Positions 51,801-64,000 of a stretch of DNA of 64,000 nt are shown piece by piece. The stretch spans positions 62,001 through 126,000 of the forward strand of contig JALDAJ010000001.1 in the NCBI GenBank assembly GCA_022729235.1, written 5' to 3'. Each line of letters opens with the position of its first letter. Within the stretch, counting starts at the first letter, position 1. A program made the translations under genes and the position numbers. Origin of the DNA: Candidatus Nanohalarchaeota archaeon (GTDB taxonomy: Archaea > Nanohalarchaeota > Nanosalinia > Nanosalinales > Nanosalinaceae). A model generated the notes under the pieces. It saw only the letters and a program-made list of their open reading frames with translations. It had not been told where the DNA came from and searched no databases.

Positions 51801-52585
51801 TAGATGATAACTACCGAGGTATGGGTATAGGTATGCGACACTGGGATGCCTACCTCCTTTGGGATGCTGGAGTTCCGAATGTATTCGGATGGTTCCCTCA
51901 AGCTAACCCTAACGAGGAATTCACAGAATTACTGCAAAAAACAGGAGGAAGGTGGTACGCAACAGATCTTTCAGAAAGAGAAGATGATCCAGAACTCCGT
52001 AAAAATCTAATGCACATCTCTAATACAAGATACATTATCTCACCTAAAGGACAATGGCTACCTTCTCACTACGAAACACAAACTATAGGACTGGAATCTA
52101 CTATACACCCTAGTGATAGACAGCTCAGAAATGAAACATTCCTAGACGAAGAGTTCAAACGAATACACTCATCAGAACACCTTGACGTGTATGAGCTTGA
52201 GCGGGAAATGTCTTACTGCGAGAGGATAGAGCCTGTCTGGATAGAGAACAACTATGCGGATACGGCGAAGGATTTCTTCAGAGAGGGTCAGCCTCTTCCC
52301 AAATTCCCTGTCGAGGGTACTCCTGCAGAAAAACCTGAAGGAGGCGATATCGAAGTCAGGTGTGATAAGAAAGATCCTTACACTATCTCTCTAGATGTTG
52401 ATGGTTCAGGATGGGTTCTGGTGAAGGAGTCATACTATCCGTTCTGGGAGCGGGTTGACGGCGGCGAGATCCACAACGGATTCGGGTTCATGGTTGTTTA
52501 CGTGGAAGAAGGCACGGAGCTTAAATATCAGCCTCGAGATTTATCCACATTCTCAATTGACGACCTGATAACATTTATTTCGTGA
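48875..52585 (+). CDS. giant GT-C-like membrane protein, two fused modules
   Basis: 1236 residues with a GTG start. Two homologous halves, each with a large polytopic domain: residues about 10-560 and about 575-1236. Both halves begin with an early acidic loop (AYDVYTYISFADHY; GVDSPLPLFRAEL) and a Pro-rich YPPL or YSPL loop, as in PF10131/PTPS-related and GT-C glycosyltransferases. The second half ends in an extracytoplasmic beta-rich domain. Probably uses polyprenyl-linked sugars on the outer face. A single fused protein of this kind is unusual. Confidence 0.7.
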   Translation: MNKEIWRGNRKYKIAGLGIFLAYVLLHIVFQRHELLAYDVYTYISFADHYSENWFYTIIPEQAHGLEIVSYPPLFFQVSALLSFLPFINETLLSILVASAGATAFSFAFFYLFKTISGIETDHDLLIILFIAFSPGLLRFILVHGQLTLIFGTTFGLLSTTYFYKIINGEDYGVYLIITLIITAFIHHFSFLITALMFAIISLVQFRKVVSRIDYLVPVFSVSGLIVLLGMFPMVYEMLFGVIQDEIYHGSRYPLEHHLAFNSYITSLYGASILGIVFVFRDKINHIERPNSLTINLLTLIFLILGLGLTTPLPEVLFGDTATKLVYDRFSLLASLFLTSLVGVYAATYQGSLSRKIPLKTVLLTVFVVLSLGAAFWTNSLHHGSYVGYGHENLGSYNQTQAQTALDFLNEEASEDYLYMTHGHGLPIGEIERNTEIPTLDTGYFTGRKIEFASSYDKLDRTTRSELENIIHHASNVSLKYVLTFDDQSASWMNDTGWDEEELGNDVKVWTNPDPGSEYERDLGERRILFGIIPPIFLVISFAFVLSERLRSRAEKGIKTSQQFLNSFLNLSRDSLSGYSAYGIILLLPFLAAAPAFLTSGLPAGVDSPLPLFRAELMTSLIEEYGQIYYWTDLWYNGSPLLAVYSPLGTYLLYYTNVLFQDITLSYNTLRLLTLVLTASAVYTISREISEDKRVRLFSVVLVTFSYPLYSNLFTVGRFSSALAVPVYLFLITLLVRDDLFQQSISSTHVLLGLGSGILFLMHTMMAYLFLFTGTIFFLVYRDNLRELGLAPIAAILFIPLLLGAPYLTRFIQHMNVLGPAWNVAPLDFSLVSHIDRNFAVQPPPLHMGWIHAVLLAVGVMSYRRMKNKFLQFSLLNLLLFYILFWSRNYGLKIIPFMNQFDLARFEILFATFGVFIAVYGLDHLLENKLLGIDHSKITLFLIILSGLVILDTSPMLTQSANWSPEFEEELSELPLDDNYRGMGIGMRHWDAYLLWDAGVPNVFGWFPQANPNEEFTELLQKTGGRWYATDLSEREDDPELRKNLMHISNTRYIISPKGQWLPSHYETQTIGLESTIHPSDRQLRNETFLDEEFKRIHSSEHLDVYELEREMSYCERIEPVWIENNYADTAKDFFREGQPLPKFPVEGTPAEKPEGGDIEVRCDKKDPYTISLDVDGSGWVLVKESYYPFWERVDGGEIHNGFGFMVVYVEEGTELKYQPRDLSTFSIDDLITFIS

Positions 52586-55500
52586 AAGGACTCTTATGAG
52601 TCTCAAGGTCGAGAAACGTACGGTCATCGAATTCTAACGAGTTAATCATAAAGCTGAGGCACCGATTATCTTCGGATTCTGCCTCCTCCCTGACGGGCGC
52701 CTTGCATCCCTTTACACTCTCAAGTTCCAGAATGTTTACTCCTTCTTCCAAATGACTTCCGACACCGAAACTTCTGGTAAATCGCTCATCTGATTCAACT
52801 TTTTCCAGTATCTCCCCATTCAAAGACAGCTTCAGAACAGGATTATCAAGTTTGCTGTATGGTGTCGCCTGTAGAAACATTGAAGTATCCTCATTTCCAG
52901 ATAAGACCACTTTTGTCTCATTCGCCATCCATCTTCCGTCTTCCTCTTTTTCATACCAGCCCCCCAGGTACTTCTTCTCTTCTAAGCTTTCCACCAGTTC
53001 GTGTTCAACTTTGAAGCTCAGGCATCGTTCATCCGTCGAGTCTTCCTCATATTCTGCCGGAGTTATACATCCCTCCCTGCTCCTAAAGCGGACATAGTTG
53101 ATATCTCTGCCTGTCACAGGGACGAGGTGATGGTTATCTTCTCTTTCAGGAGTTATCGTCTCATGTTCTTCGCCGTTGACGTAGATTGTAAGCTCCGAGT
53201 CCTCGACGCCATGATAAGGTCTAGCCGTTACATTGAGGAGAGCTGAACGAGAACCGAGCATGACTTCTGATTCGTCTTCCATCCATCTGCCATCACTTTC
53301 TTTCCCGTGCCATCCCTTACCTAGAGTTTTCTCCGGCAGTTCATCCTTTGAGAATGTTGAGAAGCTTTCCAGAAGATAGCTGAGACAGCGCTCATCATCG
53401 GAGTCCTCTTTTTCTGCAGGTACGACACATCGATCAGCCTCAAGCTGTAACTCGTTCCATCCGCTATCCGGGACACTAGCATAAATCAAGGAGTCGGATG
53501 GCTCAAAGGTTTCCGCCCTTTCTCCGTTTAGGCTGACTTCAATATCGCTGTCTTCAAGATAGCCTGCTTCAGTCATGTTAAGCCGGACAAACTGGTCGCT
53601 ACCGTCCGAGTAGAACGCCAGTCCTGCCTCCTCCCGCATCCAGCCACCTTCTTCAGAAAGTGTACCCGAGTCATGCCATCCCTGAAGAAGAACAGGACCG
53701 TCTATCTCCTCTGGAGACCTCAGGGACATGTTTTCTATTCCGAAGGATAGACACCTTGTATCCGATGAGTTGCCGTGGAGCGCAGGTACCTGACAATCCC
53801 GGGATTCAAGCTTGATCTCATTTCTTCCCTCGCTCACAGATGGGAAGTAAAGCTCTTCGGAACCCCGGACCTCGTAAGTCCTTTGATTATTTCCGTTGAC
53901 AGCGACGTTCAATTCCAGTATTTCGTTCTGAGATACATCAAAGACCTCAATATGCGGTACCTCTCTCTCATCGGCGTAAAAGATAGTGGTCACGCTCCCG
54001 TTTACGCTGTCAAAGTACTCTCCGCTCGATCTGTATGTCTCCCCTGCAGCGTAAATGCTGGAAGTGCTTATCGAAGCAAGAATTAACAAGACTATTGCGC
54101 CTATACCTACAAACCGTAGTTTCTCAAGTTCCCTCCATAACAGACCTGTCAGGATAGCTACCGCCAGCATCACCGGCACGAGATTTGTCGAGAATAAAAG
54201 AGCTTCGTCACCTATAGCTCCCAGTTCAACGAACTCAGGTCCGTAAGGTGCTTCACGGGTGATGTCCATACCCTTGTAGCGACCAGTCAAGCTCATCATA
54301 ACTTCTGACTGAGGTCCGTACTCTTTGAACTCGCTCACAAGATGCGGGTAGAATTCGGGTTGAACAGCCGAAAAGCTGTGGAAGTTATCGCTATATTCAT
54401 CCTGATCCATGTCGATACTATGCCAGGCGTTAAATCCTAGCAGCATGCCGAATACAGAGAAAAGAAAAGTCAGTAGGACGAAAATCTGGATAGTACGTCC
54501 TTTCTCCATCATCTTTTCAAGCCCTAAAGCAACCGGCAGAATCAGGAAGGGAAGCCCGACTACGGTATAACGAGGTCCAAAGCTGACTCCTGCAAGCCAG
54601 TTCAGTTGAGATGCCTGGAAGAGCAGGAAAAGCAGGAATACTCCTGGGAACAGGATAAGAAGCTTTTTGTTCCTCTTGTAAAGCTCGTAGGTTCCCGGGA
54701 TTGCGAGCAGCAGGATGGGTGCGTAGAAGAACAACCCTCTAGTAGGGAAAAAGAGAAGACGAAATGCTGCATTTAAAGCCCTCACAGGGTCCGCAATAAA
54801 GAAAGCATTAATTCTTGAGTCAAGACTATAACACTCCACGTAAACTGCACACTCGGCTTCTAAAGGTCCTAGAAACATATCCGCAGCGAGTAACGGAGGT
54901 TTTAGAGGATTACCTGTAGTAAACCAGTTATAAAGGAGCAAAGGGATAGACCCTATTAGAACGCCTCCGATGAACCTCTTAACATCTTTCTTCTCTCCAG
55001 AGGCAAATAAGTATAAGATGAAAGGAACCAGAAGTAGACTGGCGTAGTACTCAGTAGCAAATGCTAAGGCAGATAATATACCTGAAACGTACATTAACAA
55101 TGAAGCCCCCGTGTTTATCGACCTCTGAAGCACAATATACGCTAAAAAACCGAAAAACGCTGCAGTTATGACTCCGAAAAAGCTTGTCGAATATACCATC
55201 AGAGGCGTTGAAATACCAGCTAAAACCGCAGTGTAAAGAGCTGCTCTCACATCAACATAATCTTGCAGATATCGATAGACAAGCACCAGAAGCAAGGCTC
55301 CCGGAAGAACGGAGAGAGCGAATACCATAAGAAACTGTCTGAATACCGTCTGGAAAGAAAGTTCTACAGGGGAATCAGAAGACTCGCTCTCCATCCACCT
55401 ATCTGCACCTTCATCGAAAAAGCCTCCTAGGATGTAAGCCGGTACAGCTAGAAAAGAAGACATAGGCGCTTTATCCGTATAAATCACTGAGGCATTCTCA

Positions 55501-55781
55501 AAGGATTGAAGCCTTAATCTCCTTACCATCTCTTCTCTCTTACCAGGAGGACCTTCCTCATAAATCTCCCAGTATTCAGATTCGTTGATTTCACCCCAAT
55601 GCACCTCAGGGCTTATCTTGTCCATCGTGTTATGCGAATACTCAGATATTTCAAGAGACCGATCTTCTACCATAGCTTGGGCAAGATTGTATCGAGACCA
55701 GGCGTTATCTCCGCCCCAACTGATGAACATCGTGAAGAGGAATAGGAACACGAGAAACAGCTTGATCTCGGTCCGGTCCAT
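52575..55781 (-). CDS. GT-C-like membrane protein with four extracellular repeats
   Basis: 1068 residues from ATG 55781 (MDRTEIKLFLVFLFLF). About 11-13 membrane segments occupy 1-600, with an early WGGDNAWSRYNLAQAM loop like a GT39/GT-C acidic site. The C-terminal 450 residues carry four repeats of about 115 residues, each with a GWH/GWY strand, NGE turn and a Cys-x2-P-to-DxRCLSF pair that could form a disulfide. The repeats may bind glycan or protein. Its 3' end overlaps the opposing gene by 11 bp. Confidence 0.72.
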   Translation of the reverse strand: MDRTEIKLFLVFLFLFTMFISWGGDNAWSRYNLAQAMVEDRSLEISEYSHNTMDKISPEVHWGEINESEYWEIYEEGPPGKREEMVRRLRLQSFENASVIYTDKAPMSSFLAVPAYILGGFFDEGADRWMESESSDSPVELSFQTVFRQFLMVFALSVLPGALLLVLVYRYLQDYVDVRAALYTAVLAGISTPLMVYSTSFFGVITAAFFGFLAYIVLQRSINTGASLLMYVSGILSALAFATEYYASLLLVPFILYLFASGEKKDVKRFIGGVLIGSIPLLLYNWFTTGNPLKPPLLAADMFLGPLEAECAVYVECYSLDSRINAFFIADPVRALNAAFRLLFFPTRGLFFYAPILLLAIPGTYELYKRNKKLLILFPGVFLLFLLFQASQLNWLAGVSFGPRYTVVGLPFLILPVALGLEKMMEKGRTIQIFVLLTFLFSVFGMLLGFNAWHSIDMDQDEYSDNFHSFSAVQPEFYPHLVSEFKEYGPQSEVMMSLTGRYKGMDITREAPYGPEFVELGAIGDEALLFSTNLVPVMLAVAILTGLLWRELEKLRFVGIGAIVLLILASISTSSIYAAGETYRSSGEYFDSVNGSVTTIFYADEREVPHIEVFDVSQNEILELNVAVNGNNQRTYEVRGSEELYFPSVSEGRNEIKLESRDCQVPALHGNSSDTRCLSFGIENMSLRSPEEIDGPVLLQGWHDSGTLSEEGGWMREEAGLAFYSDGSDQFVRLNMTEAGYLEDSDIEVSLNGERAETFEPSDSLIYASVPDSGWNELQLEADRCVVPAEKEDSDDERCLSYLLESFSTFSKDELPEKTLGKGWHGKESDGRWMEDESEVMLGSRSALLNVTARPYHGVEDSELTIYVNGEEHETITPEREDNHHLVPVTGRDINYVRFRSREGCITPAEYEEDSTDERCLSFKVEHELVESLEEKKYLGGWYEKEEDGRWMANETKVVLSGNEDTSMFLQATPYSKLDNPVLKLSLNGEILEKVESDERFTRSFGVGSHLEEGVNILELESVKGCKAPVREEAESEDNRCLSFMINSLEFDDRTFLDLETHKSPFTK

Positions 55782-55867
55782 TTGAAACGGAATCTGCATA
55801 TGCTATCTCTGCTATCAGAAACTTTTATCAGTTCTCACAGGGTAAAAAAGAGCCGGTTTAGTACCGC

Positions 55868-57562
55868 TTATTTCTCTATAATAAAGTTCTCTAAAACCAA
55901 GATGTCCATACCTGTACCGTAGAAAGTTTTTATCGCCTCCTCCGGTCTATTAACTATAGGCTCTCCACGTATATTGAGCGAAGTATTGAGAGATGCCGGG
56001 ATGCCCGTTCTCTCTTTGAACCTCTTTATAACTCTATAAAGGCGGGGGTTAGTTTCCTCCGATACTGTCTGCGGTCTTACTGATCCATCGATATGCATTG
56101 CAGCAGGAATGTTCTCTTTTTTCTCAGATCTGACATCGAACGTTTGAACCATGTTAGGCGCTTCTGCAGCATCATACACATACTCCTCAAAATCTTCAAG
56201 AAGTATGACCGGAGCAAAAGGTCGAAATTCCTCGCGGAACTTAATTCTTCTATTAATCACATCCTTCATCCGTGCATCACGTGGATCTGCTAGAATCGAT
56301 CTGTTCCCAAGAGCACGCGGACCCATTTCCATCCTTCCACTAAAGTGCCCTACAATCTTCCTCTCTGAAAGCTCTTCGGCTATTATCTCCTCGACATTGT
56401 CGGCTCTAGTGTAATCTATCTTGTTTCTATTAAGCACGTCTTCTATATGCCCATCCGAATATTCTCTCCCTAGGTAAACACTTTCATAACCAGCCCTCCC
56501 TTGAAATTCCAGCATGCCTGCTCCTATCGAAGTTCCGGCATCGCTCGCAACGGGAAACGGATAAAAATCCTCTGTCTCGTCCATCCCTCTAAGTCTCTGA
56601 TTCATCTTACAATTAAGAGCTATACCTCCAGCGACTGCTAAATTTTCGTGTCCAAGTTCATCCAGGTACTTTCTAGCAATCGAGACAACAGTATCCTCAA
56701 GAAACTTCTGAACTTCAAAAGCCAAATCTTTGTGCCAATCTGTTATATCCTCTTCTCTTCTTCCTCTACCAAAAATCTCTTCCAGAATTTTGTATCTCTC
56801 TCCCAGACTTTGGTAAGTCAGCTTCTCAACATTATAATCTGATCCTCTCTTAAAATACTCATCTAATACGGATCTGATCTCTTTATTCGGACCTCCATAG
56901 GCTGCTAACCCCATCAACTTGCCTTCTCCATTTAATCTTCTGAAACCCAGGTACTCGGTAAAGACAGAGTAGAAATTTCCTAGACTATTTGGAAAACTAT
57001 AAGTTCTGACTCTCTCAAGCCCGTCTTCTGTTCCTTTCCAAACAACTGTAGAGTCATGTTCTCCCACCCAATCCATAGTCAAGACTATCGATGAATCAAA
57101 TTCAGATGAGTAAAAAGCGGTTGCAGCATGACACCGGTGGTGAGAGAACATCTTCACCTCCGGTACCTCACCAAACTTTTTCAACTCCTTAATTATTTCC
57201 CTATACGGCCAGTTTTTAGTGATCAGATATTTCTCTATAGCTCTTTCACACCTAAATATAAGCTGAGGTACACTGCAAGAACTCCTGAAAGCATTTTTCA
57301 GCTCAACTCCTGCCAAATGTCTAACTCGGGAAATATCGAAGGGAATTAAGATACGTTCTAACTCCTCAAACTCTATATCACAGAAATCCAGACACGCTTT
57401 GACAGAGTTCTCAGGAAACTGATCAAAAGCATGTTTATCACGCGTCAAACGCTCCTCCTCTACCCCGAAAACCAGTTCTCCATCCTGATAAATAACCGCG
57501 CTTAAGTCATTATAACCAGAATTATTTGTAGCAGGTACAACAGATAGAACGTACTGAGACAT
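55868..57562 (-). CDS. carbamoyltransferase (NodU/TobZ family)
   Basis: 564 residues. The N-terminal Kae1-like domain has AVIYQDGELVFGVEEERLTR and HHRCHAATAFYSSEFD with the metal histidines, AGGIALNCKMNQRL and GRMEMGPRALGNRSILADPR mark the nucleotide and carbamoyl sites, and a YrdC-like C-terminal region follows (IKFREEFRPFAPVIL). It makes O-carbamoylated sugars from carbamoyl phosphate and ATP. Fits the glycan region. Confidence 0.92.
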   Translation of the reverse strand: MSQYVLSVVPATNNSGYNDLSAVIYQDGELVFGVEEERLTRDKHAFDQFPENSVKACLDFCDIEFEELERILIPFDISRVRHLAGVELKNAFRSSCSVPQLIFRCERAIEKYLITKNWPYREIIKELKKFGEVPEVKMFSHHRCHAATAFYSSEFDSSIVLTMDWVGEHDSTVVWKGTEDGLERVRTYSFPNSLGNFYSVFTEYLGFRRLNGEGKLMGLAAYGGPNKEIRSVLDEYFKRGSDYNVEKLTYQSLGERYKILEEIFGRGRREEDITDWHKDLAFEVQKFLEDTVVSIARKYLDELGHENLAVAGGIALNCKMNQRLRGMDETEDFYPFPVASDAGTSIGAGMLEFQGRAGYESVYLGREYSDGHIEDVLNRNKIDYTRADNVEEIIAEELSERKIVGHFSGRMEMGPRALGNRSILADPRDARMKDVINRRIKFREEFRPFAPVILLEDFEEYVYDAAEAPNMVQTFDVRSEKKENIPAAMHIDGSVRPQTVSEETNPRLYRVIKRFKERTGIPASLNTSLNIRGEPIVNRPEEAIKTFYGTGMDILVLENFIIEK

Positions 57563-57626
57563 ATCCCGTATATACGCTCTAATCTATTTAATCTTTAATT
57601 CAAAGAGTTCAACAGAGTTCTAAATC

Positions 57627-58712
57627 ATGAAAAGGCAGCCTCAGAGGAAAATCAGAAGCACTCGTTACCCGATTTACAAGTCGCAACCTCTCTCAAGACA
57701 CAAACCTCTTTTCTTCGTAGAAGAAAAATCTTCCTCCTATATAGAGCTCCATGGACACAGCAGGTACGGTCTGAGGCGAGCCATAGAAATATTGGGGCTG
57801 GAGGAAGGTTCTGAAGTACTTTTACCCTCATATCTGTGCAGAGAGGCGGTAGAGGTATTTCAGGAGAAACATATTGACATAGAGTTTTATCAGGTAGAAA
57901 ACGATCTCGATCCTCGAATACCCGACCTAGTAGAGAAGATAAACGAGAAAACAGCCGCAATACTTGTGGTTAACCAGTTCGGGTTTCAACCAAATAACTT
58001 TGAACAAGTGGAAAAAATCGCCGATGAATATGATCTCTTTCTAATAGATGACTGTGCCCACTCTGCTTTGAGCACAAAGAAAGGTAAAATACTGGGTAGT
58101 TTCGGTGACATCGGTATTACAGGCCTTTACAAGTCTCTTCCTCTAACTGACGGATCTGTCCTCCATGTCGGTAAAGAAATTGACGTAGATTTGGAAGGGA
58201 TAGATACAAAATTCAAACCCCGAGATATTCTAAAAATAATGGGAGAGATCCTATCGAGAATAGAGCCGTACCATCCCGTCGCTGTACAGAAGATAAGGGA
58301 AGAATTCGGAGGAAACACAAGACGTCACAAGGGAGACCAAAAAATGTCTTCCATATCTTTTCTAAGAGCGACAACGCTGAATGTTGAAGATCTTAAAGCT
58401 GATAGGAGGGAAAAATTTCAAAAGTGGAAAGACATCTTCCCTCCCAAAAAGAAACTGGAGAAAGGAGTTTATCCTCTCTGCTATCCAACTTTTGTAGAAC
58501 AGCCTTCAAAGACAAAATCAATTCTGGAGAAAGAAGGTTTATACGGTGTTCAGACCTGGAACGATCTCCTTGCAGACGAGGTCACAGGCAATCCTGAGTT
58601 CAAGAATGCAAACAAGTATATCAAACATTTTATCGGATTGCCCGTCCACAGCGGAACACGGATCGAAACAGAGTATCTCAAAGAAGCCTTTTCCAGGGAT
58701 AGGATAACCTGA
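57627..58712 (+). CDS. DegT/DnrJ/StrS aminotransferase-like enzyme
   Basis: 361 residues. LLPSYLCREAVEVF, AAILVVNQFGFQPN and LIDDCAHSALSTKKG (PLP-pocket Asp) and GDIGITGLYKSLPLTDGSVL with the PLP lysine place it in the DegT/StrS family. The usual GG after the Schiff-base lysine is replaced by DGS. It transaminates nucleotide-keto-sugars, consistent with its glycan neighbours. An N-terminal basic extension of about 30 residues is unusual. Confidence 0.75.
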   Translation: MKRQPQRKIRSTRYPIYKSQPLSRHKPLFFVEEKSSSYIELHGHSRYGLRRAIEILGLEEGSEVLLPSYLCREAVEVFQEKHIDIEFYQVENDLDPRIPDLVEKINEKTAAILVVNQFGFQPNNFEQVEKIADEYDLFLIDDCAHSALSTKKGKILGSFGDIGITGLYKSLPLTDGSVLHVGKEIDVDLEGIDTKFKPRDILKIMGEILSRIEPYHPVAVQKIREEFGGNTRRHKGDQKMSSISFLRATTLNVEDLKADRREKFQKWKDIFPPKKKLEKGVYPLCYPTFVEQPSKTKSILEKEGLYGVQTWNDLLADEVTGNPEFKNANKYIKHFIGLPVHSGTRIETEYLKEAFSRDRIT

Positions 58713-58768: not shown

Positions 58769-59491
58769 GTGAAACCAAAAAGTTTAGGCATAATAATCGC
58801 GCTAGGATTAATTACCGGATTTAGCTTCTCAGTACTTTACAGCCACAATCAGCTTCCTGATGATTTTAAGACGGATAACCATGAACTTGTTCTTGATGAT
58901 GCAGACTATTTTAACAGGTTTGAAAGAGAAATGGGCAGCGAGAATAAAACTGTTTATAGAGGGAGATTTAGCGGCGAGTTAAACGGTTGGCAGGGTTCTG
59001 GTTTTTACCTAAGTCATGGTTACTCTCAAGATGTTCCGCGTAATCATACCGCTGAAATATTCGAAAACGGAGAAAAAAGGACTACAGAAGGCTTTAATAC
59101 TAGTACCTATGACAGAGGATTAGTTTTCCTACTTGGATCTGATAGTGAACTAAAAAGGCAAGAGAAAATCCCTAATATAAACCTTGACTTGCAGATAGAA
59201 GCAGTCAACATGTATAGAGACGCCCTCCATCATGCAGGAGAAGTTGAGAACATATGCTTCGATCAGCCGATAGGCATCTTCAGAAACGGTAATCTCATCG
59301 CTGAGAAAAACATTACAAACACCAGAAACTACGAAAAAATCGTCGTTGAAGACTTTACCGACCCTTCAATCCTATCTCAGATAGTTAAACCGGAAAAATC
59401 TGCGGAGTTCAGTGTAGCAATGCTAGACGCTCCTTGGTGTGAAGAGAAAATAACGACCGTGGCTATCAAAGAGTTCTATATTAGCTCGTAA
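58769..59491 (+). CDS. membrane-anchored hypothetical protein
   Basis: 240 residues with a GTG start and one N-terminal hydrophobic segment (about 6-24, GIIIALGLITGFSFSVLYS). The rest is extracytoplasmic, strand-rich and acidic, with two cysteines near residues 155 and 230. No family recognised. It follows the DegT-like gene by 56 bp on the same strand. Confidence 0.55.
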   Translation: MKPKSLGIIIALGLITGFSFSVLYSHNQLPDDFKTDNHELVLDDADYFNRFEREMGSENKTVYRGRFSGELNGWQGSGFYLSHGYSQDVPRNHTAEIFENGEKRTTEGFNTSTYDRGLVFLLGSDSELKRQEKIPNINLDLQIEAVNMYRDALHHAGEVENICFDQPIGIFRNGNLIAEKNITNTRNYEKIVVEDFTDPSILSQIVKPEKSAEFSVAMLDAPWCEEKITTVAIKEFYISS

Positions 59492-59545: not shown

Positions 59546-60262
59546 TCAAATTAACATCGCCGCAGTTTTCTTGTAAGTTTCTACCTCATGTTTCTGCAGA
59601 GGTTTTTCAAGACCATAGATGTCTCCCGCAACTACTTCTTTCTCCTCTCTTATTATCTCTATCAGGTCTTCAAGCTCATTCAAGTCAAGTACACCCTGAC
59701 CAAAACTTGTCTCCATAAGTGACTTGTCCAGTATATCAAGATCTATAGATACGTAGACTTTATCGGGGAAATCATCCAGTTTCTCCCGCAAAATCTCTCT
59801 CCAGTCTTCTTTCTCCATCACCTCATCAGATATACAGTCCAGACTGTGGTAGTATGCTCCTATCAATAAGATACTAGATACACTGTCAAGAGAACCTATA
59901 TCAGATACAAAGCTTGAGAACAGGAGGTTTTCCTCTCCTTTCTCCCGTAGATTAGCTGCGTCGTGATGGTTATCGATATGAATGTAACCTATATCCTCTT
60001 CTTCAACACCTTTGACAAGACCATAGGTGAGGTGGTGGTAGGTGTTCTCAGTGAGGAGTACCAGACTTCTATCAGGTAAATCAGCTTCCGCAACTAACTT
60101 TTCAACATCATCCTTCGATGCTTTTGCCTTATATTTGTGAAATAACTGGTTTACTATCAGAGAAGGTAACCCTGGTCTGACCAGGTTCCCGGGCATAGTC
60201 TCTCCCATATCCTTGGATAAGAAAAAGTCGATTTGAAACACGCATGGCTCAAGTTCTCGCAT
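59546..60262 (-). CDS. arginase-fold (ureohydrolase superfamily) protein
   Basis: 238 residues. YIHIDNHHDAANL near 94-105 corresponds to the DAHxD metal motif, with DNHHD here, and VYVSIDLDILDKSLMETSFG to the SxDxDxxDP motif, with the Pro missing. The GGDHS loop is replaced by TENTYHHLTYG. The Mn-binding residues are mostly kept, so a hydrolase acting on an amidine or guanidine is likely, but not arginase itself. Next to the HisA-like gene on the same strand, 18 bp apart. Confidence 0.65.
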   Translation of the reverse strand: MRELEPCVFQIDFFLSKDMGETMPGNLVRPGLPSLIVNQLFHKYKAKASKDDVEKLVAEADLPDRSLVLLTENTYHHLTYGLVKGVEEEDIGYIHIDNHHDAANLREKGEENLLFSSFVSDIGSLDSVSSILLIGAYYHSLDCISDEVMEKEDWREILREKLDDFPDKVYVSIDLDILDKSLMETSFGQGVLDLNELEDLIEIIREEKEVVAGDIYGLEKPLQKHEVETYKKTAAMLI

Positions 60263-60280
60263 TTTTCATCCCTCTACAAA

Positions 60281-60991
60281 TCATCCTGGAGAATAATCTT
60301 TCAGATAACCTCTGTGCAGAGCGGTTGAGACCAGAACTCCTGATATATTATGCTTTTCCAGTTTTTCGACATCATTAACATTCCTGACTCCTCCACCGGT
60401 TATGAACTCCTCCTCTCCATACTCATCAGCTTTTTCCAGTAAGTGTTCAGCCACACCTGACGCCGTTCCAACGTTACCGATATCCAGCAGAATAATCTCT
60501 TCTACATCCAAATCCTCTACATACTCCAACAACTCAGAAGCCGAGTCAAAATGCCCTATATCACCAGCCAGCTCTCCGTTATACATGTCTACGCTGAACA
60601 CAGCTCTTGAACCGAGACATTCCATGATATTTTCCATGTCGCCTACCGACCTCACTGTTTCAGACGCCACTATCACCTTGTCAGTTCTCTCAACGACCCT
60701 GCTTTCAAGACCTTCAGCGGTTTTTATTCCCCTATCCAAGTAGAACTGTAGGTCGAAAGTATCGAACAACTCTATTATACAGTCATCGTTGTCCCCGTTG
60801 TCCTCTAGAGAATCGATATCTGCTATATACACCTTCTTGAGCTCAAAATCGTCTTTTAAAGCCTCAAGAACGTCCACCGGTTCCGCAGAGTCAGTCAGAC
60901 AGGATTCGACAGGTTTGTAGGAGTCCCTGTCCCCTTCCACCCCTCGGACAACCTTACCTTCCTTTATGTCAAGTACAGGTATCAGCTCCAC
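60281..60991 (-). CDS. HisA/HisF-related TIM-barrel protein of the methanogen type
   Basis: 236 residues. MELIPVLDIKEGKVVRGVEG with Asp8, then RDSYKPVESCL, resembles the archaeal HisAF-related family (RDxYxPVxS), not true HisA. FSVDMYNGEL carries the second Asp, and FITGGGVRNVNDVEKL is the phosphate-binding glycine loop. In methanogens and methylotrophic bacteria this family occurs with methanofuran or methanopterin genes (family knowledge). Divergent from mfnE with a 53-bp gap. Confidence 0.8.
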   Translation of the reverse strand: MELIPVLDIKEGKVVRGVEGDRDSYKPVESCLTDSAEPVDVLEALKDDFELKKVYIADIDSLEDNGDNDDCIIELFDTFDLQFYLDRGIKTAEGLESRVVERTDKVIVASETVRSVGDMENIMECLGSRAVFSVDMYNGELAGDIGHFDSASELLEYVEDLDVEEIILLDIGNVGTASGVAEHLLEKADEYGEEEFITGGGVRNVNDVEKLEKHNISGVLVSTALHRGYLKDYSPG

Positions 60992-61021
60992 AAAAGAATG
61001 TTTGCACCTTCAAAGGTAAAA

Positions 61022-61035
61022 AGTATTGTAATACT
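61022..61035. promoter_or_regulatory. palindrome in the divergent hisAF-like/mfnE promoter
   Basis: AGTATT-GT-AATACT is a perfect inverted repeat 9 bp upstream of the mfnE ATG and within the 53-bp divergent region. It is a candidate operator controlling both arms of the cluster. Confidence 0.45.
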
Positions 61036-61044
61036 GTTCAGTCT

Positions 61045-61689
61045 ATGGAGACCGTTGTCAAGGTGGGCGGTTCAACAATCCGCGACCGAGAACGTTGTCG
61101 AAAAGTAGTTAACGCGTTAGAGGACATAGAAAGCAATATCTCAGTAATCGCAGGCGGCGGCGAGGCAGCGGACGTTGTCAGGGAACTAGATGAACGTTTC
61201 TCTATTTCAGATGAAGCTGCTCACTGGGCAGCCATAAAGGCGATGGATGTCAATGCCCACGTGCTATCCGGTATGTCGCCTGTATTCCAGTACGCAGAGG
61301 ATGAAGATGAAATCAGAGAAACAATGAGTAAAGACCATATACCAGTAACAGGCGTATACCAGCTACTCAGAAAAGACGATTCGCTGGATAAATCATGGGA
61401 TGTCACGTCTGACAGCATCACCGCACACCTAGGTAAAAAATTCGGCGTAGAAAAGATAGTGCTGGTAAAATCCGTTTCAGGGATCAAAGATGACGAAGGA
61501 AAACTCCATCAAGAGATAACTGCGGAGGAAGCCAAGAAATCAGCAGGCGAGGTAATAGATCCAATTCTACCTGAGATACTCCAGCAACACCAGCTATCCT
61601 GCACACTCGTCCACGGTGAATACCCGGAAAGAGTAAAATCGGCTATAGAAGGAGAGAGAACAACTGCGACCCAGATCTTGTCTAAGTAA
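61045..61689 (+). CDS. mfnE: MfnE-like aminomethylfuran phosphate kinase
   Basis: 214 residues of the amino-acid-kinase fold. METVVKVGGSTI is the first phosphate loop, VIAGGGEAADVVRELDE the second, AAHWAAIKAMDVNA, SWDVTSDSITAHLGK and VHGEYPERVKSAIEG follow the MfnE family from methanogens. MfnE phosphorylates 5-(aminomethyl)furan-3-methanol phosphate to the diphosphate in methanofuran synthesis. Gene neighbours MfnB and HisAF support the call. Confidence 0.82.
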   Translation: METVVKVGGSTIRDRERCRKVVNALEDIESNISVIAGGGEAADVVRELDERFSISDEAAHWAAIKAMDVNAHVLSGMSPVFQYAEDEDEIRETMSKDHIPVTGVYQLLRKDDSLDKSWDVTSDSITAHLGKKFGVEKIVLVKSVSGIKDDEGKLHQEITAEEAKKSAGEVIDPILPEILQQHQLSCTLVHGEYPERVKSAIEGERTTATQILSK

Positions 61690-61740
61690 TCAGGAGATCT
61701 CTACACCTCTATAAAAAGCCACAAATAGTAAGAGCATACT

Positions 61741-62574
61741 GTGAACCCTGTCAAGTTTTACAGGCTAGATACCTGGTACAAGAACATGGGGATGGCGCTG
61801 ATAGGAGTCTTCAGCGCCGGAGTTTCGCTGGACAACGCATTTGCAGCCGCGATAGGCTTTCTACAAGTATTTCTTGTTCAGCTGCACTCATTCAGCATGA
61901 ATGATTATTATGATCATCTAAGATGGGGTGAAGAGACCTACGTTGGAAAGCTTCTCTCTGAAGGATGGGATCTCTGGCAACTCCGGTTTCTTATGTTGGC
62001 GCCGCTTGCGTTAGCATTGATGTTTTATCCTGTTTCGCAAGAGTTCACCCTACTTCTTGTGCTTTACAGTCTTCTCTTCTACCTTTACCAGGGACCGATG
62101 CGTTTAAAACGGCATTGGGCGTTCTCCATACCCCTAAACGCGATCCCTCTCGGTCTTATAATCTACCTACATCCTTACCTAGTAACCGCAGGATCACTTG
62201 GAGCTACCGGATTATTCTTTTCTATACTTTTCACGTTCTATCTGGCGTTTTACGAGATAGCGCACCAGATCGAGCATCAGGAAGAGGAACGGGAAGTATT
62301 TTCGCTCATTGACCAAATAGGAGTCAAAAACAGTTTAATCGTCGCCACGCTTTTCCTAATAGTCCCTGTTGTAACAGGGATCTTCCTTGCTTGGTCAACC
62401 GGTGTTTGGCAACTGTATCTTATACCCGCATTCTTCTTTATAATTCGAGTTTTGCAGCTTCATAGAATAGAGGACTACGGGAGGATAAGAAAAAGTCGGC
62501 ACAAGTTCTACGCAGCACATGAAGGCATTTATTACTTAATTATACTCTCTCTAATTAGTGCAGGAATGCTATGA
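61741..62574 (+). CDS. UbiA-type prenyltransferase-like membrane protein
   Basis: 277 residues with a GTG start and about eight membrane segments. SMNDYYDHLRWGEE matches the first Asp-rich motif (NDxxD), and a loop EIAHQIEHQEEEREVFSLID can serve as the second. A QGPMRLKRHWAFSIPLNA segment resembles the UbiA region after the first motif. It would attach an isoprenoid to an acceptor. It overlaps the mfnB start by 4 bp, so translation is coupled to mfnB. Confidence 0.65.
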   Translation: MNPVKFYRLDTWYKNMGMALIGVFSAGVSLDNAFAAAIGFLQVFLVQLHSFSMNDYYDHLRWGEETYVGKLLSEGWDLWQLRFLMLAPLALALMFYPVSQEFTLLLVLYSLLFYLYQGPMRLKRHWAFSIPLNAIPLGLIIYLHPYLVTAGSLGATGLFFSILFTFYLAFYEIAHQIEHQEEEREVFSLIDQIGVKNSLIVATLFLIVPVVTGIFLAWSTGVWQLYLIPAFFFIIRVLQLHRIEDYGRIRKSRHKFYAAHEGIYYLIILSLISAGML

Positions 62575-63287
62575 AATCACTGATAACGGTAACAGATGCG
62601 GACGAGGCAGAGGTTGTTTCTGATCAAAGACCTGAGATAGTGGACATCAAGAATCCTTCCGAAGGATCTCTCGGTGCTTCAAGACCCAGTAGAATAGAAG
62701 AGATCTGCGATGAAATAGCTGGCGACTCCGAAATCAGCATAGCAATCGGGGACTGCCCTCAACTTCCCGGAACCATAGGTCTGGCTGTGGAAGGCGCTCT
62801 GCGCTTTGATCCTGATTACATCAAGATAGGTCTGAAAGAGGCTGAAACAATTGAAGAAGGTGTAGAAATCATAAGGACAGCGGTGAAGACAGTAGATAGA
62901 AATAATACGGACACCAGCGTGGTCGTGGCAGGATACGGGGATTATAAAGCCTCTGGAACCCTTGAACCGAAAAATATCGTCGAAGTAGGTTCGAGAGCGG
63001 GCGCAGACACAGTTATGCTTGATACGTTATCCAAAGATAAGGGAAATCTGTTGGACATATTACCACGGAGCGAACTGGAAGGATTCACTAGATACGCCAG
63101 ACAGAACGGTATGGATGTGGCGCTCGCCGGCTCCCTCACGACAGAAGACATTAAGAAGGTGGACAACATAGGAGCGGACATAGCAGGCTTCAGAGGCGCT
63201 GTGTGCGAACAAGGGAGAGAGTCAAGTATAAACAGCGAAAAAGTCGAGAACATAGTCAAGAACTGCAAACTGAGGGAAAAACAATGA
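62571..63287 (+). CDS. mfnB: MfnB, (5-formylfuran-3-yl)methyl phosphate synthase
   Basis: 238 residues. It matches the DUF556/MfnB family end to end: VDIKNPSEGSLGA, AIGDCPQLPGT, YIKIGL, VVAGYGDYKASG, VMLDTLSKDKG and ALAGSLTTEDI. Asp25, Lys27, Lys85, Asp151 and Lys155 fall on the same numbers as the catalytic residues known in the Methanocaldococcus enzyme. It condenses two glyceraldehyde-3-phosphates into the furan core. Its start overlaps the UbiA-like gene and its stop overlaps the next gene. Confidence 0.9.
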   Translation: MKSLITVTDADEAEVVSDQRPEIVDIKNPSEGSLGASRPSRIEEICDEIAGDSEISIAIGDCPQLPGTIGLAVEGALRFDPDYIKIGLKEAETIEEGVEIIRTAVKTVDRNNTDTSVVVAGYGDYKASGTLEPKNIVEVGSRAGADTVMLDTLSKDKGNLLDILPRSELEGFTRYARQNGMDVALAGSLTTEDIKKVDNIGADIAGFRGAVCEQGRESSINSEKVENIVKNCKLREKQ

Positions 63288-64000
63288 TGCTCAGGAAAGG
63301 GTTCTATCTTCATAGTTCATTCAAACATCTCGAACAAAGTCTGCCTCATATAAAAAAAACTCAAGAGGAACGACTAAGAGAAATCCTAGAGGAGGCATAC
63401 AAAAGACCTTTCTACTCTGATAAATGGTCTAAACACGGTTTCCATCCAAACCAGTTCGACAAGCTAGAGGATATAAAGAAAATCCCTATCATCGATCCGG
63501 ACAGAAACCAGATGGGAGATGTCAAGAAAAGTATAGACAAGGGCGGAAGTCTGTTAAGCTCAGGGTCTTCGGGAAGGCAGAGACTTAAAGTCAATTTCGG
63601 GAACCAGCCCTGGGACTGGGTCGAGGCAGTGTACCTCAGAAACCTGATTATCCAAGGCTACCGACCGTTCAGGAAACAGCATAATTACTGGTATGAGAAA
63701 AGGAAGAATAAAATCAGAAGAAACATTTTCGTTCCGAAAGAAAATATCCTGTATGAACGATCTTTCGAAGAACAACTGGAAGAGCTTGAAAGCACCTCCC
63801 ATGACTACATAATATACTACCCTATTGTTCTCTTCACGCTAGCCAAGAAAGCCTTGCAATCAGACAGGAATTACGACATCAGTCCTAAAGCAATATTCAC
63901 GCAGGGGGAGGTACTCACTCCTACCATGAGAGAAACTATCCAGGAAGCCTTCAAAGCACCCGTCCACGATAACTATGGTTGTACGGAGTTTCACCGGATA
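63284..64000 (+). CDS. adenylate-forming ligase, CapK/PaaK-like (partial)
   Basis: 239 residues up to the window end, continuing beyond. SLLSSGSSGRQ corresponds to the AMP-binding P-loop, and VHDNYGCTEF to the YGxTE motif. The N-terminal REILEEAYKRPFYSDKW and central segments match the CapK/phenylacetate-CoA ligase-like family. It would activate a carboxylate as the acyl-AMP. ATG 63284 overlaps the mfnB stop (ATGA). Confidence 0.75.
   Translation, partial: MMLRKGFYLHSSFKHLEQSLPHIKKTQEERLREILEEAYKRPFYSDKWSKHGFHPNQFDKLEDIKKIPIIDPDRNQMGDVKKSIDKGGSLLSSGSSGRQRLKVNFGNQPWDWVEAVYLRNLIIQGYRPFRKQHNYWYEKRKNKIRRNIFVPKENILYERSFEEQLEELESTSHDYIIYYPIVLFTLAKKALQSDRNYDISPKAIFTQGEVLTPTMRETIQEAFKAPVHDNYGCTEFHRI

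Follow-up and report, generated by a model that had tools for sequence, protein, structure and literature searches.

In methanogens, methanofuran is built by the enzymes MfnA to MfnF, and MfnF couples the furan intermediate to glutamyltyramine (PMC11365854, PMC8141765). In methylotrophic bacteria, the methylofuran cluster comprises Orf22, Orf21, Orf9, and Orf17, and Orf17 is required for methylofuran at a step not yet assigned (PMC8141765). Here we describe a cassette that pairs homologues of MfnB and MfnE with a UbiA-fold membrane transferase. It lies at positions 59546-64000 of a 64,000-nucleotide stretch of Nanohaloarchaeota DNA (hereafter the window), which corresponds to bases 62001-126000 of a single-contig genome of 1,027,595 bases (G000, estimated 95% complete). 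Four other genomes carry counterparts. An earlier note on this DNA had proposed that these furan-core genes stand apart from one-carbon (C1) metabolism and that the furan goes to a new lipid or cofactor; as checks it named an MfnB tree, synteny in relatives, and a genome search for MfnF and for Ftr, the formylmethanofuran:tetrahydromethanopterin formyltransferase.

The genes form two divergent runs separated by a 53-base spacer, with the HisA-like and arginase-fold genes on the left and the MfnE-like, UbiA, MfnB, and PaaK-like ligase genes on the right. ATGA overlaps occur at the UbiA/MfnB and MfnB/ligase junctions. The G+C content of the cassette genes (0.42-0.48) is inside the window spread (0.465, standard deviation 0.041). 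The genes are as follows.

59546..60262, minus strand: arginase-fold metallohydrolase downstream of the HisA-like gene, in this cassette only (PF00491)
60281..60991, minus strand: HisA/HisF-related barrel of the Orf17 type, divergent from MfnE, core in four of five cassettes (TIGR00734)
61045..61689, plus strand: MfnE-like kinase of the amino-acid-kinase fold, predicted to convert F1-P to F1-PP, core (NF040622 as best model; co-distribution with MfnB)
61741..62574, plus strand: UbiA-fold membrane transferase, core (PF01040, five-copy alignment, AlphaFold2 model, Foldseek)
62571..63287, plus strand: MfnB homologue (4-(hydroxymethyl)-2-furancarboxaldehyde phosphate, or 4-HFC-P, synthase, which forms the furan ring), core (PF04476, catalytic residues, structure 4rc1, clade support 97/95)
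63284..64000, plus strand, ending at about 64534 beyond the window: PaaK-like AMP-forming acyl/aryl ligase, accessory (NF045666; its ATG overlaps the MfnB stop)

The MfnB, MfnE, and HisA/HisF-related genes, their divergent layout, and their coupled starts were each confirmed where the earlier note had placed them. Its list of partners stood in part: UbiA is present in all five cassettes and the ligase is partly conserved, but the arginase-like gene was seen in no other cassette and thus does not belong to the conserved core.

Distribution of the cassette and identity of MfnB and MfnE

The Nanohaloarchaeota are a small archaeal phylum, sampled here by 28 genomes. PF04476, the MfnB family, has matches in three of these, which belong to three families: G000, G007 (Nanoanaerosalina NHA24), and G008 (QJJ-7_bin.66). 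The UbiA and MfnE models were built from G000 and G008 only; since the UbiA profile is cassette-derived, it is the out-of-sample genomes (G007, L020, and L021) that provide an informative test. In G007 the two models scored 174 and 134 bits, respectively. MfnB, MfnE, and UbiA thus occur in the same three of 28 genomes, and the others have only weak kinase matches (22-25 bits). MfnE adjoins UbiA in G007, and a HisA-like gene runs divergently there too, just as it does in the window. The MfnE-UbiA contig and the MfnB contig of G007 probably join, because one ends inside a glycosyltransferase in which the other starts. All cassette genomes except the window genome are draft assemblies.

When 84,980 species genomes were scanned with the UbiA alignment, four loci emerged, namely those of G007, G008, an Aenigmatarchaeote (L020), and the Omnitrophota bacterium Candidatus Saelkia tenebricola (L021). 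The last two both have MfnB, MfnE, and a HisA-like gene nearby. In Saelkia the genes lie on one strand in the order MfnE, UbiA, HisA-like, MfnB, AsnB-like, with overlaps at the first two junctions. Contamination was rejected as a source, since the genome around the window is assembled as a single contig and, in Saelkia, the genes bounding the cassette are bacterial (tsaE at one end, tsaB-like and alanine racemase genes at the opposite end). True members of this UbiA group (>400 bits) were found in one of 156 Aenigmatarchaeota (next match 84 bits) and one of 384 Omnitrophota genomes (next match 30 bits). The MfnB background in these phyla is also low (1/156 and 3/384 genomes). In the two DPANN phyla (184 genomes), four genomes have both MfnB and this UbiA and none has one without the other, and MfnE is directly 5' of UbiA in four of the five cassettes.

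A further MfnB-MfnE-UbiA tandem was found in Omnitrophota genome G256 (L066:9809-12259). Its UbiA family protein (342 residues, PF01040 50.8 bits) keeps the canonical Asp-rich motifs and, compared pairwise, is not significantly similar to the window UbiA (E 0.75). To judge from these sequences, it is apparently a second furan pathway with a separate UbiA recruitment. All five cassettes thus keep the UbiA link, and G256, a sixth genome, provides an independent counterpart. The third Omnitrophota MfnB (G332) lies where its contig ends, which leaves the upstream partner unreadable; all six assessable MfnB loci of Nanohaloarchaeota, Aenigmatarchaeota, and Omnitrophota have a UbiA within the same cassette. 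The G256 operon is preceded by a methyltransferase gene and, farther upstream, a B12 radical SAM gene. A search of viral contigs found no UbiA or MfnB relative. Among the papers searched, there was no report of MfnB paired with UbiA or of such a furan lipid, and the two Nanohaloarchaeota genome papers covering G007 and G008 do not mention furan.

MfnB uses Lys27 as its Schiff-base residue (PMC6604932). The window protein has Asp25, Lys27, Lys85, Asp151, and Lys155 all in place, and these residues are invariant across the five cassette homologues. Its PF04476 score is 219 bits (gathering score 22.4), by which it reads as a clear 4-HFC-P synthase, and among solved structures MJ1099 (4rc1, E 5.8e-39) is the nearest. 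Its score against the NF002575 equivalog model is 217.5 bits (cut-off 304); the protein would be expected to work like MfnB but is not a certified equivalog. For the MfnE-like protein, NF040622 is the best NCBIfam model (131.7 bits, curated cut-off 300), followed by UMP kinase (36.7 bits).

In an MfnB tree of 15 rows (modest sampling), the five cassette proteins (three from Nanohaloarchaeota, one from the Aenigmatarchaeote, and one from Saelkia) group as a single clade (support 97/95), apart from other Omnitrophota (100/100), Streptomyces, MJ1099, and the methylotrophs. The cassette proteins are placed among catalytically intact 4-HFC-P synthases and separate from the methylotroph branch. Because the five form a supported clade, the cassette has probably moved between domains. 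A tree of MfnE was poorly resolved and was given no weight.

UbiA protein, Orf17-type barrel, and absent methanofuran genes

The UbiA superfamily includes AfUbiA, digeranylgeranylglyceryl phosphate (DGGGP) synthase, and a membrane phosphoribosyl transferase. The window UbiA scored 47.8 bits against PF01040 (cut-off 34.2), and its AlphaFold2 model has a mean pLDDT (predicted local distance difference test) of 84.6. The best Foldseek match is Archaeoglobus AfUbiA (4tq4, with dimethylallyl diphosphate [DMAPP] and magnesium bound; template modelling [TM] score 0.72, E 1.1e-05), and the next neighbours are DGGGP synthase, Aeropyrum UbiA, and the membrane phosphoribosyl transferase (8j8j). The cassette protein resembles superfamily members in fold (TM 0.64-0.73), membrane helices, and NxxxD motif. 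It differs from them in low identity (14-18%), in its furan-pathway partners, and in its Asp-rich motifs, where motif 1 has lost its third Asp and motif 2 its first two. An alignment of the five cassette copies and a motif alignment indicate that N54xxxD58 is retained in motif 1, and that motif 2 reads E172-x-x-H175-Q176-x-x-H179, with Q176 and H179 at canonical Asp positions and E172 and H175 invariant. The window UbiA therefore departs from the canonical motif pair NDxxDxxxD / DxxDxxxD. The altered motif 2 could reflect a difference in the metal site or in the donor. A sister UbiA with the same HQxxH signature (84 bits) is encoded in Aenigmatarchaeota genome G452 (L071:9268-10080, minus strand), at a locus that holds LA_3751-type glycosyltransferase, radical SAM, and sulfatase-like genes. 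MfnB and MfnE were not found near it, and it was not counted as a cassette member.

For the HisA-like gene of the window, TIGR00734 is the best NCBIfam model (160.5 bits, cut-off 179.85; HisA 93 bits). The same model is best for the HisA-like genes of all four cassettes that have one (146-161 bits), with HisA second (93-122 bits). A role in histidine synthesis was rejected; G000 has just one other match to the cassette HisA-like model, which is short and weak. TIGR00734 is taken to be the family of Orf17, because Orf17 is a PF00977 HisA/F relative and the cassette model matches in a Phyllobacterium C1 cluster (L070), where a HisA/F-related barrel is annotated. Deletion of orf17 in Methylorubrum extorquens abolished methylofuran and left no glutamylated intermediates, while methenyl-dephosphotetrahydromethanopterin (methenyl-dH4MPT) was still detected (PMC8141765). 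Four of five cassettes keep the HisA-like gene, beside or near the furan genes, despite the missing MfnF, which argues that the barrel acts in the furan branch. The presence of this family beside MfnB and MfnE, with neither MfnF nor Ftr, argues for a role in furan formation rather than in the glutamate side chain or tetrahydromethanopterin. The cassette makes the standing question of Orf17's step directly testable.

MfnF (TIGR03123) was found in none of the 28 phylum genomes and none of the five cassette genomes, and positive controls matched. Ftr (PF01913) was likewise found in none of the five cassette genomes, with controls positive; FwdA was not searched for, and formylmethanofuran dehydrogenase (Fwd/Fmd) is unlikely to be present because Ftr is absent. 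The cassettes therefore share with the methanogen pathway an MfnB with all catalytic residues, MfnE, and a HisA/F-related barrel whose family also occurs in methanogens, but they lack MfnF and Ftr, UbiA follows MfnE in them, and no C1 genes were seen. They also differ from the methanogen pathway in where they occur, namely in host-dependent DPANN lineages and an Omnitrophota bacterium. With the methylofuran cluster they share MfnB, MfnE, and the Orf17-type barrel; however, the glutamate ligases MyfA/MyfB and the C1 enzymes of methylotrophs were not seen in them, and their MfnBs branch apart. Taken with the MfnB tree and the UbiA link, the absence of MfnF and Ftr supports the earlier proposal of furan-core genes outside C1 metabolism.

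Predicted pathway and alternative explanations

UbiA enzymes take an allylic diphosphate and transfer its alkyl group, and F1-PP is a furfuryl diphosphate. On balance, we consider it probable that the cassette serves to form an activated aminomethylfuran and to link it to an acceptor in the membrane. In this putative chemistry, MfnB would join two glyceraldehyde-3-phosphates to give 4-HFC-P; the residues for this step are present here and the activity is known for the family. An aminotransferase would convert 4-HFC-P to F1-P, and the MfnE-like kinase, judging from its family, would form F1-PP, a furfuryl, allylic-like diphosphate. UbiA, replacing the absent MfnF, would then move the furfuryl group from F1-PP to a lipid or other membrane-bound acceptor. 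A carboxylate-activating enzyme (PaaK-like, or AsnB-like without Cys at position 2) might acylate the amine, which is speculative. The HisA-like barrel would belong to the furan branch, and the product would probably end at the cell surface.

Since MfnF is absent, F1-PP would otherwise have no known user, and UbiA is its natural candidate user because UbiA enzymes act on allylic diphosphates. The phosphoribosyl transferase among the structural neighbours gives a precedent for a non-prenyl donor. A cultured nanohaloarchaeon was reported to have no lipid biosynthesis genes (PMC11035636). F1-PP, by contrast, would require only a glycolytic intermediate, and we count this in favour of the proposed pathway. 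More tentatively, the cassette may define a new class of surface lipids with an aminomethylfuran head, in which UbiA takes furfuryl diphosphate instead of prenyl diphosphate, the cassette having spread to host-dependent archaea and to one or more Omnitrophota bacteria. If so, organisms possibly without isoprenoid synthesis could decorate lipids they acquire, an ancient C1-cofactor building block would have another role, in membranes or in glycoconjugates of the surface, UbiA enzymes would accept a new kind of donor, and otherwise hard-to-see symbionts would have a lipid marker.

Several observations weigh against this pathway. MfnE and MfnB both score below curated NCBIfam cut-offs, so altered substrates are possible. 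The second Asp-rich motif of UbiA has QxxH in place of DxxD, and magnesium-diphosphate binding is thus not assured. A profile search did not find the HisA-like gene in G008 (genome 78% complete). No aminotransferase is conserved across the cassettes (MfnA, MfnC, and MfnD were not searched for); the G008 cassette has a class III aminotransferase, and none is obvious in the others.

UbiA could instead be conventional, using a prenyl diphosphate donor to prenylate the furan and give a quinone-like prenylated furan lipid. The top structural matches were solved with prenyl diphosphates (4tq3/4tq4, with geranyl diphosphate/DMAPP), and the unrelated UbiA of G256 has the canonical Asp-rich motifs. With a prenyl donor, however, the conserved MfnE kinase, a maker of furan diphosphate, would be idle although it adjoins UbiA in four of five cassettes, and the type-I UbiA motifs are altered; we regard a prenylated furan as unlikely. 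Substrate drift is likewise doubtful. MfnB and MfnE might have become, for example, the aldolase and kinase of an unusual surface sugar, with no furan made, as the sub-equivalog scores and the flanking surface-glycan genes would allow. All five catalytic residues of MfnB are nevertheless invariant, the HisA-like partner comes from a family needed for methylofuran (PMC8141765), and the same MfnB-MfnE couple is paired with two separate UbiA subfamilies.

There is a small chance that the product is a membrane-anchored, methanofuran-like C1 carrier used by unrecognised C1 enzymes, as methanofuran and methylofuran are made with these very components, MfnB, MfnE, and the Orf17-type barrel (PMC8141765); against this, both Ftr and MfnF are absent from the five cassette genomes. 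The genes might also have come together by chance, in a surface-glycan island where transferred genes accumulate, with UbiA having its role in some unrelated lipid. Such a gathering would fit a neighbourhood rich in glycosyltransferases, flippases, and carbamoyl- and aminotransferases, but is very improbable given co-occurrence without exception in the 184 DPANN genomes, a set conserved over two domains, and the similar second pairing in G256.

Accessory and neighbouring genes

Enzymes that activate carboxylates accompany several cassettes. The long reading frame of the PaaK-like ligase scored 119 bits against NF045666. Such ligases occur close to MfnB in three cassettes (those of the window, G008, and the Aenigmatarchaeote) and are 24-31% identical. 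AsnB-like genes adjoin the core in Saelkia (L021:12376-14172) and the Aenigmatarchaeote (L020:8192-9964); they are 38% identical and have no Cys at position 2, which suggests an amide ligase and not a glutaminase. The arginase-fold gene of the window (PF00491 40.2 bits) has the metal motifs DNHHD and DLDILD. Just 3' of the window ligase is a radical SAM protein that resembles B12-dependent methyltransferases (L005:8870-10387; about 64870-66387 in window numbering).

LA_3751-type glycosyltransferases (25-30% identical) and flippases (27-31%) lie close to all three Nanohaloarchaeota cassettes. A product at the cell surface is likely because the cassette lies among such genes. In the window, positions 52575-58712 form a surface-glycan island, and the flanking genes are as follows.

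52575-55799, minus strand: LA_3751/PMT-type glycosyltransferase, to which the counterparts next to the G007 and G008 cassettes are 26-30% identical (library profile matches)
55868-57562, minus strand: NodU-type carbamoyltransferase (library profile matches)
57627-58712, plus strand: DegT-type aminotransferase (library profile matches)
58769-59491, plus strand: unknown protein of 240 amino acids

MfnB also occurs on Streptomyces plasmids (L069:11932-16194; L078:5911-10368), where it is followed by aldehyde dehydrogenase, alcohol dehydrogenase, and methyltransferase genes. As in the cassettes, MfnB is apparently outside C1 metabolism there, which would make these operons a third such use of MfnB. 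Unlike the cassettes, they lack MfnE, UbiA, and HisA-like genes within the stretch covered, and their MfnB branch is separate.

The triosephosphate isomerase gene that adjoins the HisA-like gene of the Aenigmatarchaeote (L020:6112-6915, minus strand) appears circularly permuted. Its N-terminal strand region (NFKAY...APPYTD) is located at the C-terminus. As encoded, the protein matches PF00121 over positions 55-243 (86 bits); rotated in silico, it matches over 2-243 (99 bits).

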